NCBI RefSeq assembly: GCF_017304635.1
Contig: NZ_JAFKMA010000001.1
Span: 744,001 to 808,000, forward strand
Origin: Sphingomonas sp.
GTDB taxonomy: Bacteria; Pseudomonadota; Alphaproteobacteria; Sphingomonadales; Sphingomonadaceae
Length of the DNA stretch: 64,000 nucleotides
Direction: 5' to 3'
Shown here: in pieces, positions 54,963 to 62,257 of the stretch
How the letters are laid out: the number at the start of each line of letters is the position of its first letter
How positions within the stretch are numbered: position 1 is the stretch's first letter
Program-made: the position numbers and the translations under genes
Notes under the pieces: generated by a model
What the model saw: the letters and a program-made list of their open reading frames with translations, nothing else
What the model was told of the DNA's origin: nothing
Databases searched by the model: none

Positions 54963-57224
54963 ATGAGCGGCGTGCCGACCCTTGGCGAGCGAACGGCGTG
55001 GCGCCGTTTGCGTGTCACACCGGCGGTCGAACTGTTTGTGCTGGCGGTGGCGATCGGTATCGGGATCGTCACCTATTTTGCGGTACGGGGCGGGGCAACG
55101 CGGCAGCAGCTGTTGACGCCGCCGCTGGTCGCGCTGCTGCTGATCGCCAACCTTGCGCCGCTGGTCGCAATCATCATCCTGGTCGGGCGGCGGATCGCGC
55201 GGCATCGCGCAGCGCGATCGGATGCGCGGGGCGAGGGTCGCTTGCACGTCCGCCTGGTCGCATTGTTCTCGATCATCGCGACCGTTCCGACCATTCTGGC
55301 CGTGCTCTTCGCGTCGGTGATGTTCCAGTACGGCGTCGAGTTCTGGTTGTCGGACCGCGTCGCCGCGGTGTTGACCAATGCGCGCGATCTCGCCCGCGAG
55401 TCTTACGAACAATCGCTGTCGCGATGGAGCAACGAGGCGGTCGCGACGGCAGGTGACATAGCGGGAAACTTCGGCTCCACCCTCAGTAAGACGACCGACC
55501 CCGCCGCTCTCGTCAAGGCGCACGAGGCCCAATATGGCCTGACGCTGCCCGACTACCTGCTGCAACAACTCTACAATCGCAATCTGTCCGAAGGCGCGCT
55601 GTTCACCGTCGATGGCAGCAACGTGCAATTCATCGCGCGCGTCGATCCCTATGGTGACGCCGCGCAGCAGATCGATCCGGTCGGGGTGTCGTCGGTGCTT
55701 CACGACGGCAAGCCCGTCATCACCGTGAAGGGCAATCGCATCCGGATGCTGAGCCTGGTCCCCGGCAGCAAGCAGGTCCTGCTATACGTCGGCAAGGTCA
55801 GCGACGGCAGCATCAGCGATCGCCAGACCAAACGTTTCACCGACGTCGTGACCGACTTCAAGGCGTTGCAGGCGCGCGCGCGCGCGCTGCAGTTGCAGTT
55901 CAATGCCGCCCTGCTCGTCGTCGCGCTGTTGATCGTCATCATCGCGGTGTGGATCGCGCTGGTCGTGGCGGATCGCCTGGTACGGCCGGTGGGCGAGATG
56001 GTCGGCGCGGCGCGACGCGTGGCGGCGGGCGACCTGACGGCGCGTGTGCCCGACCGGCATACCAATGACGAGATCGGCACGCTGGCCAGCGCGTTCAACG
56101 CGATGACCGGGAGGCTGGAACAGCAGACCGGAGCCCTCGAAAGCCGGCGCGCGCTGATCGAGGCAGTGATGTCGGGCGTGTCGGCGGGCGTCATCTCGGT
56201 CGGTGGCGACGGCGCGATCCGGCTCATCAACGCGTCGGCGGCGGAGTTGCTGCGGCTCGACGCGACGCAGGCGGTTGGCGCGACACTCGACGTCGTGTCG
56301 CCCGACCTTGCCGAAGCGATGGCGAGCGGCACGCGCGATTCGATCGTCCAACTCACCGCCGGCGGCGAGGCGCGCACGCTGGCGGTGCGGATCACCGGCG
56401 ACGAGGACGGCCGCGTGCTCACGTTCGACGACATCACGCAGCAACTGCTCGACCAGCGCCGCGCCGCCTGGTCGGACGTCGCGCGGCGCATCGCGCACGA
56501 GATCAAGAACCCGCTGACCCCGATCCAGCTCGCCGCCGAACGCCTCCAGCGCCGCTACGGCAAGACGGTGGCGCCGGAGGATACCATCTTCGGCCAGTTG
56601 ACCGACACGATCGTCCGCCAGGTCGGCGACCTGCGGCGGATGGTCGACGAATTCTCTTCGTTCGCGCGCATGCCCAAGCCGGTGTTCCACGAGGAATCGT
56701 TGATCGACCTCGCGCGCCAGGCACTGTTCCTGCACGAAGTCGCGCACCCGGCGATCCGCTTCACGCTCGACACGCCCGACAGCGCGCCGCTGGTCTGCGA
56801 TCGCCGCCAGATCGGGCAGGCGCTGACCAACATCGTCAAGAATGCGGTCGAGGCGATCGAGGCGCGCGACGATGCCGCGGATGGCGAGATCGCCGTCACG
56901 CTGCGCACCGACACGCCCGACGCCAATCACCTGACGCTCGAGATCGCCGACAACGGCATCGGCCTGCCCGTCGAGCGCGACCGCATCGTCGAGCCGTACA
57001 TGACCACGCGCGCCCGCGGCACCGGGCTCGGCCTCGCGATCGTGAAGAAGATCATCGAGGAACATTGCGGCACGATCGCCTTTGCCGATCGCCCGGGCGG
57101 GGGCACGGTCGTGACGATTGTGTTCGACACCGCCGCGCTGACCGCTTTGCTCGACACCGCGCCCGAGCCCGCCGCCGGAACCGGCGACGGCGCACTCGCC
57201 ATTCTTACCAGGACAAGATCATGA
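54963..57224 (+). CDS. ntrY: Membrane sensor kinase NtrY
   Basis: This 753-residue histidine kinase has transmembrane helices near residues 20-38, 46-70 and 90-115, a periplasmic region, another helix near 315-335 and a HAMP domain (VADRLVRPVGEMVGAARRV). A PAS domain follows (AGVISVGGDGAIRLINASA), then phospho-accepting His512 in [18 protein letters not shown], and ATPase motifs VKNAVEAIE and GTGLGLAIVKKIIEEH. It works with NtrX in nitrogen, redox or envelope signalling. An upstream in-frame start is possible; 54963 fits best. Confidence 0.94.
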   Translation: MSGVPTLGERTAWRRLRVTPAVELFVLAVAIGIGIVTYFAVRGGATRQQLLTPPLVALLLIANLAPLVAIIILVGRRIARHRAARSDARGEGRLHVRLVALFSIIATVPTILAVLFASVMFQYGVEFWLSDRVAAVLTNARDLARESYEQSLSRWSNEAVATAGDIAGNFGSTLSKTTDPAALVKAHEAQYGLTLPDYLLQQLYNRNLSEGALFTVDGSNVQFIARVDPYGDAAQQIDPVGVSSVLHDGKPVITVKGNRIRMLSLVPGSKQVLLYVGKVSDGSISDRQTKRFTDVVTDFKALQARARALQLQFNAALLVVALLIVIIAVWIALVVADRLVRPVGEMVGAARRVAAGDLTARVPDRHTNDEIGTLASAFNAMTGRLEQQTGALESRRALIEAVMSGVSAGVISVGGDGAIRLINASAAELLRLDATQAVGATLDVVSPDLAEAMASGTRDSIVQLTAGGEARTLAVRITGDEDGRVLTFDDITQQLLDQRRAAWSDVARRIAHEIKNPLTPIQLAAERLQRRYGKTVAPEDTIFGQLTDTIVRQVGDLRRMVDEFSSFARMPKPVFHEESLIDLARQALFLHEVAHPAIRFTLDTPDSAPLVCDRRQIGQALTNIVKNAVEAIEARDDAADGEIAVTLRTDTPDANHLTLEIADNGIGLPVERDRIVEPYMTTRARGTGLGLAIVKKIIEEHCGTIAFADRPGGGTVVTIVFDTAALTALLDTAPEPAAGTGDGALAILTRTRS

Positions 57225-58591
57225 GCCTCGACATCCTCGTCGTCGACGACGAGCAGGACATCCGCGAACTCGTCGCCGGCGTGTTGCAGGACGAAGGCTA
57301 TGAGACGCGTGCGGCGGGCGACAGCGACGCCGCGCTCGACGCGATCGCGACGCGGCGGCCAAGCCTGGTGCTGCTCGATGTCTGGCTGCAAGGGTCGCGA
57401 TTGGACGGCCTCGACCTGCTCGACGAGATCAAGCGGCGCGATCCGTCGATCCCGGTGCTAGTGATCTCGGGTCACGGCAATATCGACACTGCGGTCGCAG
57501 CGATTCGACGCGGCGCGGTCGATTTCATCGAGAAGCCGTTCAACGCCGACCGCCTGCTGCTGATGGTCGCCCGCGCGACCGAGACCGAGCGGTTGCGACA
57601 GGAGGTAGCGACGCTGCGCGCGGCGACCGGCCGCGACACCGACCTGACCGGGAGTTCGGCCGCGATCAACACTGTCCGCGCGACGCTGAAGCGCGTGGCG
57701 GGGACCGGCAGCCGCGTGATGATCGTCGGATCGGCGGGCGTCGGCAAGGAAGTCGCCGCGCGTCTGCTGCATAGCTGGTCGACTCGCGCGCAGGGGCCGT
57801 TCATCGTCGTTAGCGCCGCGCGGATGACGCCGGAACGCGTCGAAGAGGAGTTGTTCGGAATCGAGGAAGCGGGCGACCTCGTCCGTCCCGGCCTGCTCGA
57901 ACAGGCGCATGGCGGGACGCTGTTCCTCGACGAGATCGCCGACATGCCGATTGCGACGCAGGGCCGTATCCTACGCGTCCTGACCGACCAGAGCTTCACT
58001 CGCGTCGGCGGCCAGCGCACGGTCAAGGTCGATGTCCGCGTCGTCTCGGCGACCGCGCGCGACCTGATGGCGGAGATCGCGGAGGGGCGGTTCCGCGAGG
58101 ACCTCTATTACCGCCTCAACGTCGTGCCGGTGCTGATCCCGCCGCTGACCGACCGGCGTGAGGACATTCCGGCGCTGGTCGAGCATTTCGTCGCGCACTA
58201 CGCCAACGAACGCCGCGTACCGACCCCCGAAGTCGCCGACGACGCACTGGTCGCGCTGCAAAGCTACGAATGGCCGGGGAACGTCCGCCAGCTGCGCAAC
58301 GTCGTCGAACGCACCATCATCCTCGCGCCCGGCGATCGCATCGGCCGGATCGACGTCGACCTGCTGCCGTCCGAAGTGTTGGGCGGGGCGGGCGAGGGGG
58401 CGGGAGCCTCGGCGATGATGGGGGCGCCGTTGCGAGAGGCGCGCGAGACGTTCGAGCGCGAATATCTTCGCGTCCAGATCCGCCGCTTCTCGGGCAATAT
58501 CTCGCGAACCGCGACCTTCATCGGGATGGAACGCTCGGCGCTGCATCGCAAACTCAAGCTGCTCGGCATCACCGATACGCGCGACGAGTGA
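57221..58591 (+). CDS. ntrX: Response regulator NtrX
   Basis: This 456-residue regulator has the receiver phospho-site Asp53 (LVLLDVWLQGSRLDG), an AAA+ domain with a Walker A variant GSAGVGKE, Walker B GTLFLDEIADMP, and C-terminal Fis-type helix-turn-helix SGNISRTATFIGMERSALHRKL. The loop that carries GAFTGA in NtrC reads FGIEEAGDLVRPG here, so the sigma-54 contact is missing. NtrX probably acts on ordinary sigma-70-type promoters. It overlaps the ntrY stop by four bases. Confidence 0.94.
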   Translation: MSLDILVVDDEQDIRELVAGVLQDEGYETRAAGDSDAALDAIATRRPSLVLLDVWLQGSRLDGLDLLDEIKRRDPSIPVLVISGHGNIDTAVAAIRRGAVDFIEKPFNADRLLLMVARATETERLRQEVATLRAATGRDTDLTGSSAAINTVRATLKRVAGTGSRVMIVGSAGVGKEVAARLLHSWSTRAQGPFIVVSAARMTPERVEEELFGIEEAGDLVRPGLLEQAHGGTLFLDEIADMPIATQGRILRVLTDQSFTRVGGQRTVKVDVRVVSATARDLMAEIAEGRFREDLYYRLNVVPVLIPPLTDRREDIPALVEHFVAHYANERRVPTPEVADDALVALQSYEWPGNVRQLRNVVERTIILAPGDRIGRIDVDLLPSEVLGGAGEGAGASAMMGAPLREARETFEREYLRVQIRRFSGNISRTATFIGMERSALHRKLKLLGITDTRDE

Positions 58592-58717
58592 TTCGCGCCG
58601 CTGGACGTAACGGTACCGACATCATACATTGCCACGGCACGTACCAAGTGGGTGCGCGTTCGGACGCCGGGAACCGGCGCCGTGCGGGGCACGTCCCGCC
58701 AAGAGCAAGGACCGATA

Positions 58718-59209
58718 ATGGCCGAAAAGCAGACTTCCCTCCAAGACCTCTTCCTCAACGCGCTGCGCAAGTCGAAAACTCCTGTCACGATGTTCCTCGT
58801 GAAGGGCGTCAAGTTGCAGGGCATCGTCACGTGGTTCGACAATTTCAGCGTGCTGCTGCGCCGCGACGGGCAGAGCCAGCTGATCTACAAGCACGCCATC
58901 TCGACCATCATGCCGTCGAACCCGATCGATATCGACGCGATCGTCGATGCGGTGGGCGAAGCGCAGAAGAAGACGCCGCTGTTGCAGGAGATTTTCCTCA
59001 ACGCGGTGCGCAAGTCGGACGACAGCGTGACCATGTTCCTGGTCAACGGCGTCATGTTGCAGGGGCATATCGCCTCGTTCGACCTGTTCTGCATGCTGCT
59101 CGAGCGCGAGGGCATGGCGCAACTGGTTTACAAGCATGCGGTGTCGACCATCCAGCCCGCGCGTCCGCTGAATCTGGCTGAAGACTCAAGCGATTCAGAC
59201 GATCATTGA
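58718..59209 (+). CDS. hfq: RNA chaperone Hfq with two tandem Sm domains
   Basis: This 163-residue protein is about twice the usual Hfq core. Domain 1 (about 5-68) reads [14 protein letters not shown], then [13 protein letters not shown] and [15 protein letters not shown]. Domain 2 (about 87-151) reads [15 protein letters not shown], then [13 protein letters not shown] and [16 protein letters not shown] 15-residue linker joins them and the tail is acidic (EDSSDSDDH). Both keep the YKH proximal-site motif. Domain 2 lacks the distal-face Lys (Met113) and has Asp-Asp where the rim is basic. AAGG lies eight bases before the ATG at 58718. A ring would need three chains rather than six. Confidence 0.93.
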
Positions 59210-60495
59210 CCACCGGATTTGAACGCGATCGCGACGATTTCGCGCGGGGCGCCCGCGCGATCGTCGTCCTGCCCGACCAGGGCAATGCTCGCCGCGACGC
59301 CGATGCGCGACTGGAGGAGACCGCCGGTCTCGCCGCCGCGATCGGCGTCACGGTAGCAGAAAAGCTCGCCTTTCGCGTCCGCGCACCCAAGCCGGCGACG
59401 TTGATCGGCTCGGGCCAGGTCGAGCAACTCGCCGCGCAGGTGCGGATGGAGGAGGCGGGGCTGGTCGTGTTCGACGCCAGTCTGACGCCGGTGCAGCAGC
59501 GCAACCTCGAAACCGCGCTCGAAGCAAAGGTGATCGACCGTACCGGGCTGATCCTCGAAATCTTCGGCGAGCGCGCGGCGACCGCGGAAGGGCGGTTGCA
59601 GGTCGAATTGGCGCATCTCGATTATCAGGCCGGGCGGCTGGTGCGCAGTTGGACTCACCTCGAACGCCAGCGTGGTGGCTTCGGCTTCCTGGGCGGCCCC
59701 GGTGAAACGCAGATCGAGGCCGACCGCCGACTGATCCGCGACCGCATGGCACGGTTGCGCAAGGAACTCGACCAAGTCAGCCGCACGCGTGGCCTGCATC
59801 GCGATCGCCGCCAGCGCGCGCCATGGCCGGTGATCGCGCTGGTCGGCTATACCAACGCCGGAAAGTCGACGCTTTTCAATCGCCTGACCGGATCCGACGT
59901 CATGGCGGAAGACCTGCTGTTCGCGACCCTCGACCCGACGCTCCGCCAGATTTCGCTGCCCGGCATCGACAAGGCGATCCTGTCCGACACGGTCGGCTTC
60001 GTCTCCGAACTGCCGACTCAACTGGTCGCGGCGTTCAAGGCGACGCTGGAGGAAGTGGTGTCGGCCGACCTGCTGATCCACGTCCGTGATATCGCGCATC
60101 CCGACAGCGAAGCGCAGCGCGCCGACGTCGAGGCGGTGCTGGCGGAGATCGGCGTCGCCGAGACGACCCCGCGGTTCGAGGCGTGGAACAAGCTCGACCT
60201 GCTCCACGGCGAAGCGCGCGACGACGCGCTGACCGATGCCGCGCGGCGCGACGACGTCGTCCCCATTTCGGCGATCAGCGGGGAGGGGGTCGAGGACCTC
60301 CGCCGCAAGGTCGCCGCCAAGCTGACCGCCGGCCACCGCCGCTACACGATCACGCTCGATGCATCGGACGGGGCGGGGGCGGCTTGGCTGCACCAGCATG
60401 GCGAGGTGCTGGGACAGGATGTCGAGGGCGACCGCGCGACCTACGACGTCCGCATGGCCGAGCGCGACTGGGATCGATTCCAGCAGCGCGACTGA
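59206..60495 (+). CDS. hflX: Ribosome-associated GTPase HflX
   Basis: This 429-residue GTPase splits or rescues stalled ribosomes. The N-terminal HflX domain includes [18 protein letters not shown] and the linker [20 protein letters not shown]. The G domain has G1 [18 protein letters not shown]3 [12 protein letters not shown], and G4-like WNKLDLL. The TTG start at 59206 overlaps the hfq stop by four bases, matching the usual hfq-hflX coupling and the family N-terminus ([17 protein letters not shown]). Confidence 0.94.
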
Positions 60496-61654: not shown

Positions 61655-62257
61655 TCATTGTGGATTAGGAGTGAGGATGAGCGTGCCCCCCTCGACCCGC
61701 CACGATTTGAGCTTGGACAGGAAACTCATACCCAACACGTCGGTATTGCCGAACTCGCTCGCGACCGCGGCCGGCGCATCGCGCGCGGTGATCGATCCGA
61801 TCGTCAGCGTCGCGATCCGTGCCGGTTGCGCCGTGACCATGCCGTTGGCCGTGTCGAGCACCAGGGGCGGCCCGGATGCGTCGACCGCGACTTTCGCCGC
61901 GGCGGCGGTGTCGGTCGACAAACTGGTGTAGCTCGCGCCGCTGTCGACCATCAGCGATCGCTCGACGCCGTTGATGCCGGCGCGGACGTAGAAATGCCCG
62001 TCCTCCGCGATCGGGACGCGGACTTCGCCGCCGACGACCGACTGGTCGCGACCGAAGAACAATTCGTGCGCGCCCGACACCAGCCAGTCGTTGCGGTTGA
62101 CCAGCGCGATCACGCCGAGTCCGATCGCGAAGATCCCGATCCAGGCCGCCGCCATCACGCCGATCCGCCCGATCGGCAATCGTCGCGCGAGCAACGCCGA
62201 CAGCGGCAGGACCAGCAGCATGACGTAGAAGATCGCGTTCTCGGTCTGATCGTTCAT
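61655..62257 (-). CDS. Membrane-anchored retropepsin-like aspartic protease (TIGR02281-type)
   Basis: This 200-residue protein has two N-terminal transmembrane helices (about 7-25 and 34-52), then a periplasmic single-lobed aspartic protease domain. The catalytic aspartate is Asp105 in SLMVDSGASYTSLS, and the C-terminal ADVLGM-type strand reads TDVLGMSFLSKL. It would act as a dimer, as retropepsins do. Substrates of this clan AA family in alphaproteobacteria are unknown. It overlaps the metallohydrolase gene by four bases. Confidence 0.88.
   Translation of the reverse strand: MNDQTENAIFYVMLLVLPLSALLARRLPIGRIGVMAAAWIGIFAIGLGVIALVNRNDWLVSGAHELFFGRDQSVVGGEVRVPIAEDGHFYVRAGINGVERSLMVDSGASYTSLSTDTAAAAKVAVDASGPPLVLDTANGMVTAQPARIATLTIGSITARDAPAAVASEFGNTDVLGMSFLSKLKSWRVEGGTLILTPNPQ

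Follow-up and report, generated by a model that had tools for sequence, protein, structure and literature searches.

The hfq gene at positions 58718–59209 (+ strand) of the window, the 64 000-nucleotide stretch of a Sphingomonas genome analysed here, raises the question of how an Hfq ring is built when each chain carries two Sm domains, and what becomes of its RNA-binding faces when the two domains are not alike. The open reading frame runs from ATG to TGA without an internal stop and encodes 163 amino acids; AAGGA, 6 bases 5′ of the ATG (58707–58711, +), reads as a likely ribosome-binding site. The gene is the sole Hfq match that a profile search finds in the 3.18 Mb genome (completeness 99.9), and there is no PADLOC match that would point to a defence role.

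Two Hfq domains in one chain

The profile PF17209 matches the protein twice (whole-protein score 196.6 bits, cut-off 27). The first match, domain 1 (D1; 108.2 bits), is at 58739–58927 (+; genome 802739–802927 minus 744000), and the second, domain 2 (D2; 91.7 bits), at 58982–59170 (+; genome 802982–803170, converted likewise). The gap separating the matches is the inter-domain linker (58928–58981, +), and D2 is followed by an acidic C-terminal tail (59171–59206, +). TIGR02383 also covers two stretches of the protein (182.9 bits, cut-off 61.7), and the double-length model NF010691/PRK14091.1 gives 292.9 bits (cut-off 270) over model positions 16–176 of 176. The original prediction of two complete Hfq domains in a single 163-residue chain is thus borne out, and because one uninterrupted reading frame holds two domains, and not the one Sm domain per chain of standard Hfq, the protein is filed under double-length Hfq rather than under the standard form.

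Both halves of the window protein contain the pocket residues F/Y25, Q33, Q52 and T61 of the distal face and Q8, F42, K56 and H57 of the proximal face (E. coli numbering, as for all domain positions below). The roles of some of these residues are general background on Hfq. Those of others are taken from PMC4337610. D1 and D2 share 38 of 62 residues and 122 of 177 bases, which indicates an old duplication and not a recent duplication in the assembly.

The gene sits between ntrX (57065–58591, +; NF051870, 751.2 bits, cut-off 600) and hflX (59206–60495, +; TIGR03156, 458.9 bits, cut-off 216.75). Both neighbours are conserved: of 240 loci, 212 have ntrX on the upstream side and 238 have hflX on the downstream side, in a set that pools doubles, singles and a few duplicate loci, with short flanks in some. 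The listed start of hflX is a TTG, the true start being uncertain, and it shares four bases with the hfq stop (59206–59209); this overlap with a putative start suggests that translation of the two genes is coupled. Further along, near mazG, a clan AA aspartic protease of the TIGR02281 family is found at 61655–62257 (−).

Known double-length and single Hfq proteins

That sphingomonads have a double-length Hfq, as the original prediction stated, is correct and already on record. An earlier note on the matter was reportedly made by Sun, Zhulin and Wartell in 2002. The available text of Yang et al. (2010; PMC2877685) describes two Sm-like domains per chain in the Hfq of Zymomonas mobilis (ZMO0347), as in the window protein, and likewise in six other Sphingomonadales species, and poses as a test whether three chains suffice for a ring. 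Together with NF010691, which is an annotation family only, this makes the architecture and the three-chain hypothesis already known. A residue-level comparison of the halves was not found in the available text of that account, which concerns another organism. Titles and abstract beginnings in the open-licence literature revealed no other account of the fusion, and the same literature, as far as its available text goes, yielded no later structural or biochemical work on a double Hfq; nor did a search there and among solved structures bring up a structure, mass or binding measurement for one.

The sequence search of solved structures returned 35 sequences, the longest of 114 amino acids. The best is PDB 6gwk (116.3 bits to D1, residues 2–72), which we take to be the Hfq of Caulobacter crescentus and which, unlike the window protein, has a single domain (82 amino acids in the entry). 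E. coli Hfq (NP_418593) shares the pocket residues, likewise has hflX downstream of its gene, and is identical to D1 at 35 and to D2 at 33 of 61 residues; it differs from the double in having one domain, with N28 and K31 within the same subunit, and a Q at position 41. Hfq-dependent sRNA regulation has been reported in Sphingopyxis granuli, a report not tied to the double form.

Occurrence and origin of the fusion

In a survey of 397 genomes of the family, in which double and single forms were called by reading the profile scores of each genome, 335 have the double gene (320 above the NF010691 cut-off and 15 below it) and 47, in 15 genera, have a single hfq. The rest are five with short, degraded doubles of genus g12, one whose double is truncated at a contig end (G855) and nine without a match. 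Its presence in 335 of these 397 genomes excludes chance as the source of the two-domain gene. A survey of 196 genomes of the order gave 102 two-domain genes, all within the window's own family (113 genomes sampled), where six short two-domain forms of g12 and five singles were found besides; none of the 83 genomes of other families scores as double, 77 being single and six without a match. Only three genomes of a class sample of 240 and five of a phylum sample of 150 exceed the NF010691 cut-off, and all are of the same family; outside it there is none among 237 and 145 genomes, respectively (next best scores 147 and 145.7 bits), and it should be pointed out that all surveys outside the family are samples, whose scores would not single out a double decayed to the extent of the short g12 forms. 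As to the comparison with other Sphingomonadales and with rhizobia that had been proposed, the double form is common within the family, and the class sample has no double outside it.

Named carriers among 80 of 585 confirmed relatives include Sphingomonas, Hephaestia, Sphingobium, Sphingorhabdus, Blastomonas, Novosphingobium, Erythrobacter, Qipengyuania, Tsuneonella, Aurantiacibacter and Croceibacterium. The best named relatives are from Sphingomonas, and the family survey likewise places the double form in the Sphingomonadales. The loci of these 80 relatives are all two-domain, and the locus set as a whole divides into 192 two-domain and 31 one-domain loci. One contig titled Actinobacteria bacterium (L196) bears a sphingomonad-type double hfq and is probably mislabelled or part of a contaminated bin. 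In some doubles (L005, L011, L017, L020 and similar) the open frame extends 50–100 residues upstream of domain 1, and the stretch just before domain 1 has no Met.

A tree of HflX comprises 71 selected rows. Of these, 39 are doubles, with each genus code represented by one to five, 22 are family singles and 10 are outgroups. The doubles form one clade (support 97/97) and the family singles a grade outside it, in a tree that has several weak inner branches (e.g. 83/9) and one implausibly long branch (5.79), that of the single L239. In a tree of the domains themselves, built on 62 columns, the D2 sequences form a single clade (98/93) and the D1 sequences a single group (81/87); this tree carries long-branch warnings and an unsettled bootstrap. 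A single origin, by one fusion in place between ntrX and hflX, is strongly supported. The simplest account is that the fusion postdates the earliest branchings of the family and that the second half was never lost in the sample. Beyond the published picture, the present comparison supports a single origin, dates the fusion and marks its boundary within the family. The nearest single lineages retain N28 and K31, and the single Hfq of genus g348 ends in P-I-N-L-A-E, which resembles the window tail after D2, P-L-N-L-A-E.

Two other histories were considered. Horizontal import of the double gene is not supported, as the ntrX–hfq–hflX slot is kept and the hosts form one HflX clade. Loss of D2 in the single-Hfq genera is not supported either, as the singles lie outside the double clade on the HflX tree.

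The locus L239 is one of two single hfq matches (with L243) in a 2.9 Mb genome (G569). The two have equal scores and the same protein text and lie near both ends of one contig; the pair is perhaps the overlapping end of a circular assembly.

Differences between the two halves

Comparison of 166 distinct doubles (14 g12 sequences set aside) with 27 distinct singles reveals a regular difference between D1 and D2. Position 28 is K in all 166 D1 domains, whereas it is N in 165 of 166 D2 domains and in 27/27 singles; in the window, alignment places the lysine gained in D1 at K29 (58802–58804, +) and its D2 counterpart at N110 (59045–59047, +). Position 31 shows the reverse. The lysine of the singles (27/27) is kept in 165/166 D1 domains (K32 in the window, 58811–58813, +) and is replaced by M in every D2 (166/166; M113, 59054–59056, +). 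Position 41 is N in 166/166 D1 domains and 27/27 singles, and L in 158/166 D2 domains, the window codons being N42 (58841–58843, +) and L123 (59084–59086, +). Finally, position 63 is M in 165/166 D1 domains and in 27/27 singles, but Q in all 166 D2 domains.

The basic rim differs as well. N13 is retained in 166/166 D1 domains and in 41/166 D2 domains, and in most D2 domains R17 and R19 have given way to uncharged or acidic residues. At position 16 the R is present in 121/166 D2 domains, and thus the D2 rim is weakened and not erased. The mean net charge of the rim, computed over positions 16–19, 46a and 47, is +4.9 in D1, +0.5 in D2 and +4.9 in the singles (31 rows). On the other hand, Q8, F25, Q33, Q52, Y55, K56, H57 and T61 are invariant in both halves of the 166 doubles, and F42 is changed once.

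The contrasts K32/M113, RKSK/RKSDD and N42/L123 had been read correctly from the window protein. The reciprocal exchange K29/N110 had not been mentioned, and the predicted asymmetry at RNA-contacting positions is more regular across the 166 doubles than one sequence shows. This regularity, at positions 28, 31, 41 and 63 and in rim charge, is new here. A DNA pattern for the D1 motif K-G-[V/I/M]-K-[L/F]-Q-G matches 336 of the 397 family genomes, which by hand comparison are the 335 doubles and G855, with 0/47 singles and 0/5 short g12 forms; the positions compared, among the matches listed, fall in hfq.

Both halves are under purifying selection, which is stronger on D1. In 55 disjoint pairs, dN/dS is 0.08 for D1 and 0.16 for D2, and nonsynonymous changes are more numerous in D2 in 42 pairs and in D1 in six. 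The roughly twofold faster evolution of D2 fits relaxed constraint as well as it fits specialisation.

The linker, counted from T61 to Q8, is 19–28 residues long across the doubles, and 24–26 residues in 162 of 180. The tail is net negative in 178 of 180 distinct doubles (mean −5.9). This acidity fits the report, in the available text of PMC11005374, that the tail of Caulobacter Hfq touches the basic rim.

One of the 166 main doubles departs from the rule in both halves. The locus L218 (from 3001), of an Altererythrobacter xiamenensis metagenome-assembled genome (MAG), has Q31 in D1, the sole exception to K, and in its D2 a K replaces N at position 28. With K31 lost from D1 and K28 gained in D2, the number of lysines per chain is still two. 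As a sign that this number is held, the exchange may be read as only suggestive, being one case and from a MAG. The D2 pattern K-G-[V/I/M]-M-[L/F]-Q-G, used to look for further exchanges of this kind, gave one match in the 397 genomes, in G851 and outside hfq; the M31 state of D2 itself was established on 166 + 14 sequences, a smaller set than the 335 doubles.

Genus g12, with 14 distinct sequences (L042, L044 and L049–L060), is diverged in both halves. K28 of D1 and N28 of D2 are kept in 14/14; position 31 of D1 is R in 6/14, and D2 has lost M31 in 4/14 and Q33 in 7/14. Linkers are shortest, at 19 residues, in the six forms L055–L060, whose second domains are weak. It is possible that the g12 doubles represent a natural decay series.

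RNA-contact positions

The D1/D2 changes fall on contact positions of all three faces of Hfq. In simulations of Pseudomonas Hfq, according to the available text of PMC8121710, N28 and I30 form a weak distal N-pocket and K31 lies beside the A-pocket, with the N28 and K31 contacts running through backbone atoms. That the side-chain change N28K alters binding is our inference. The available text of PMC4337610 gives Q41 with Q8, K56 and H57 as the proximal uridine site and N13, R16, R17 and F39 as the rim.

The effect of such changes may be large or small. In E. coli, according to the available part of a preprint (PMC12262471), K31A lowers captured sRNA–mRNA pairs almost four-fold and R16A, with the strongest effect, nearly abolishes them, but for regulation K31 mutants are said to be only mildly affected or to work almost fully (PMC12262471 and PMC5348863, as far as the available text goes). 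Loss of K31 in half of the subunits may therefore matter little.

Proposed architecture of the ring

The best explanation, judged from the sequence pattern, is probably a ring of three chains in which D1 and D2 alternate and charge is asymmetric. One duplication of hfq in place, with fusion of the copies, in an ancestor of most of the family would have produced a chain with two Sm domains, and three such chains would close one six-domain ring. We infer the stoichiometry, the alternation and any division of labour; a linker of 19–28 residues does not force D1 and D2 to alternate. In known Hfq structures, A-rich mRNA and the U-rich ends of sRNAs occupy opposite faces. As the pockets are conserved in both domains, the ring should still bind both in this way.

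By sequence, D1 has K28, K31 and a full basic rim, and D2 has neither lysine and a near-neutral rim. Positive charge would then be placed at three of the six ring positions, giving three-fold rather than six-fold charge symmetry. In a ring of single-domain Hfq, each subunit contributes one lysine at positions 28/31, six in all; a double ring of three chains would also have six, all on D1. In a bolder and less certain extension, D1 would be the RNA-annealing unit and D2 scaffold-like, its contribution being base pockets and the acidic tail; the tail may brush against the rim, as has been reported for the Hfq of Caulobacter.

A serious competitor, although we lean slightly against it, accepts the alternating ring and so overlaps with the explanation just given. 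Here D2 would be a decaying spacer, the differences between halves drift and compensation, and the ring like an ordinary hexamer with fewer charges. A D2 that evolves at twice the dN/dS of D1 is in keeping with this, as are the mildness of E. coli K31A for regulation, as far as described, and the loss of Q33 from half of the g12 D2 domains, in a genus where D1 diverges too. But M31 and Q63 in every one of the 166 D2 domains and K28 in every D1 are too regular for a drifting spacer, and among 335 doubles the D1 motif has never gone back to the single-Hfq state.

It is unlikely that the chains form two joined homotypic rings, that is, a dodecamer of six chains in which a six-D1 ring and a six-D2 ring are held together by the linkers. 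The Sm core is kept in both halves, the linker has 19–28 amino acids, and D2 is changed at position 63 (M to Q, 166/166), at 54 (to A, 101) and at 51 (to V, 110), positions that presumably lie on Hfq subunit edges; these changes could mark a D2–D2 interface. However, the D2 ring would lack a 28/31 lysine in 165/166 doubles and have almost no rim charge, yet keep its base pockets invariant. In addition, the paired change in L218, one case, is easier to understand with D1 and D2 on a common face, and the single-domain ancestor is expected, from known Hfq, to have formed one ring.

That the chain is cut, or initiated internally, to give ordinary single-domain hexamers is very improbable. Nothing direct speaks for it; in-frame start codons do occur in linkers (ATG in 51/166, GTG in 88/166 and TTG in 83/166), but no linker start codon conserved across the 166 doubles was found, and an internal ATG start, possible in only 51/166, is not conserved. 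The narrow range of linker length also argues against it. A sequencing or assembly duplication, which the original prediction named among its refutations, can be dismissed, since the halves differ at 24 of 62 residues and the double gene recurs in 335 of 397 family genomes.

A possible ring with two kinds of subunit

Eukaryotic Sm/Lsm hetero-rings consist of seven separate, non-identical Sm proteins. They resemble the alternating ring proposed here in having non-identical subunits, and differ in that these are separate proteins rather than a fused pair. A more far-reaching reading of the alternating ring, which we hold with rather more doubt than confidence, is that it may be a bacterial hetero-ring in the making, the fusion having split six identical sites into two specialised sets. 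Three elements belong jointly to this tentative reading: the distal lysines and the basic rim would be concentrated on D1 and the D2 rim neutralised; RNA would be read with three-fold symmetry, as in an A-R-N-A-R-N period of six nucleotides combined with three strong annealing rims; and each chain would keep its count of 28/31 lysines at two.

If this is true, the double form would offer a natural way to test why Hfq requires six sites. A mutation in a homohexamer hits all six subunits, whereas in a ring with two separable kinds of subunit each half would be mutable separately, and the D1/D2 rule supplies the specific residues to swap.
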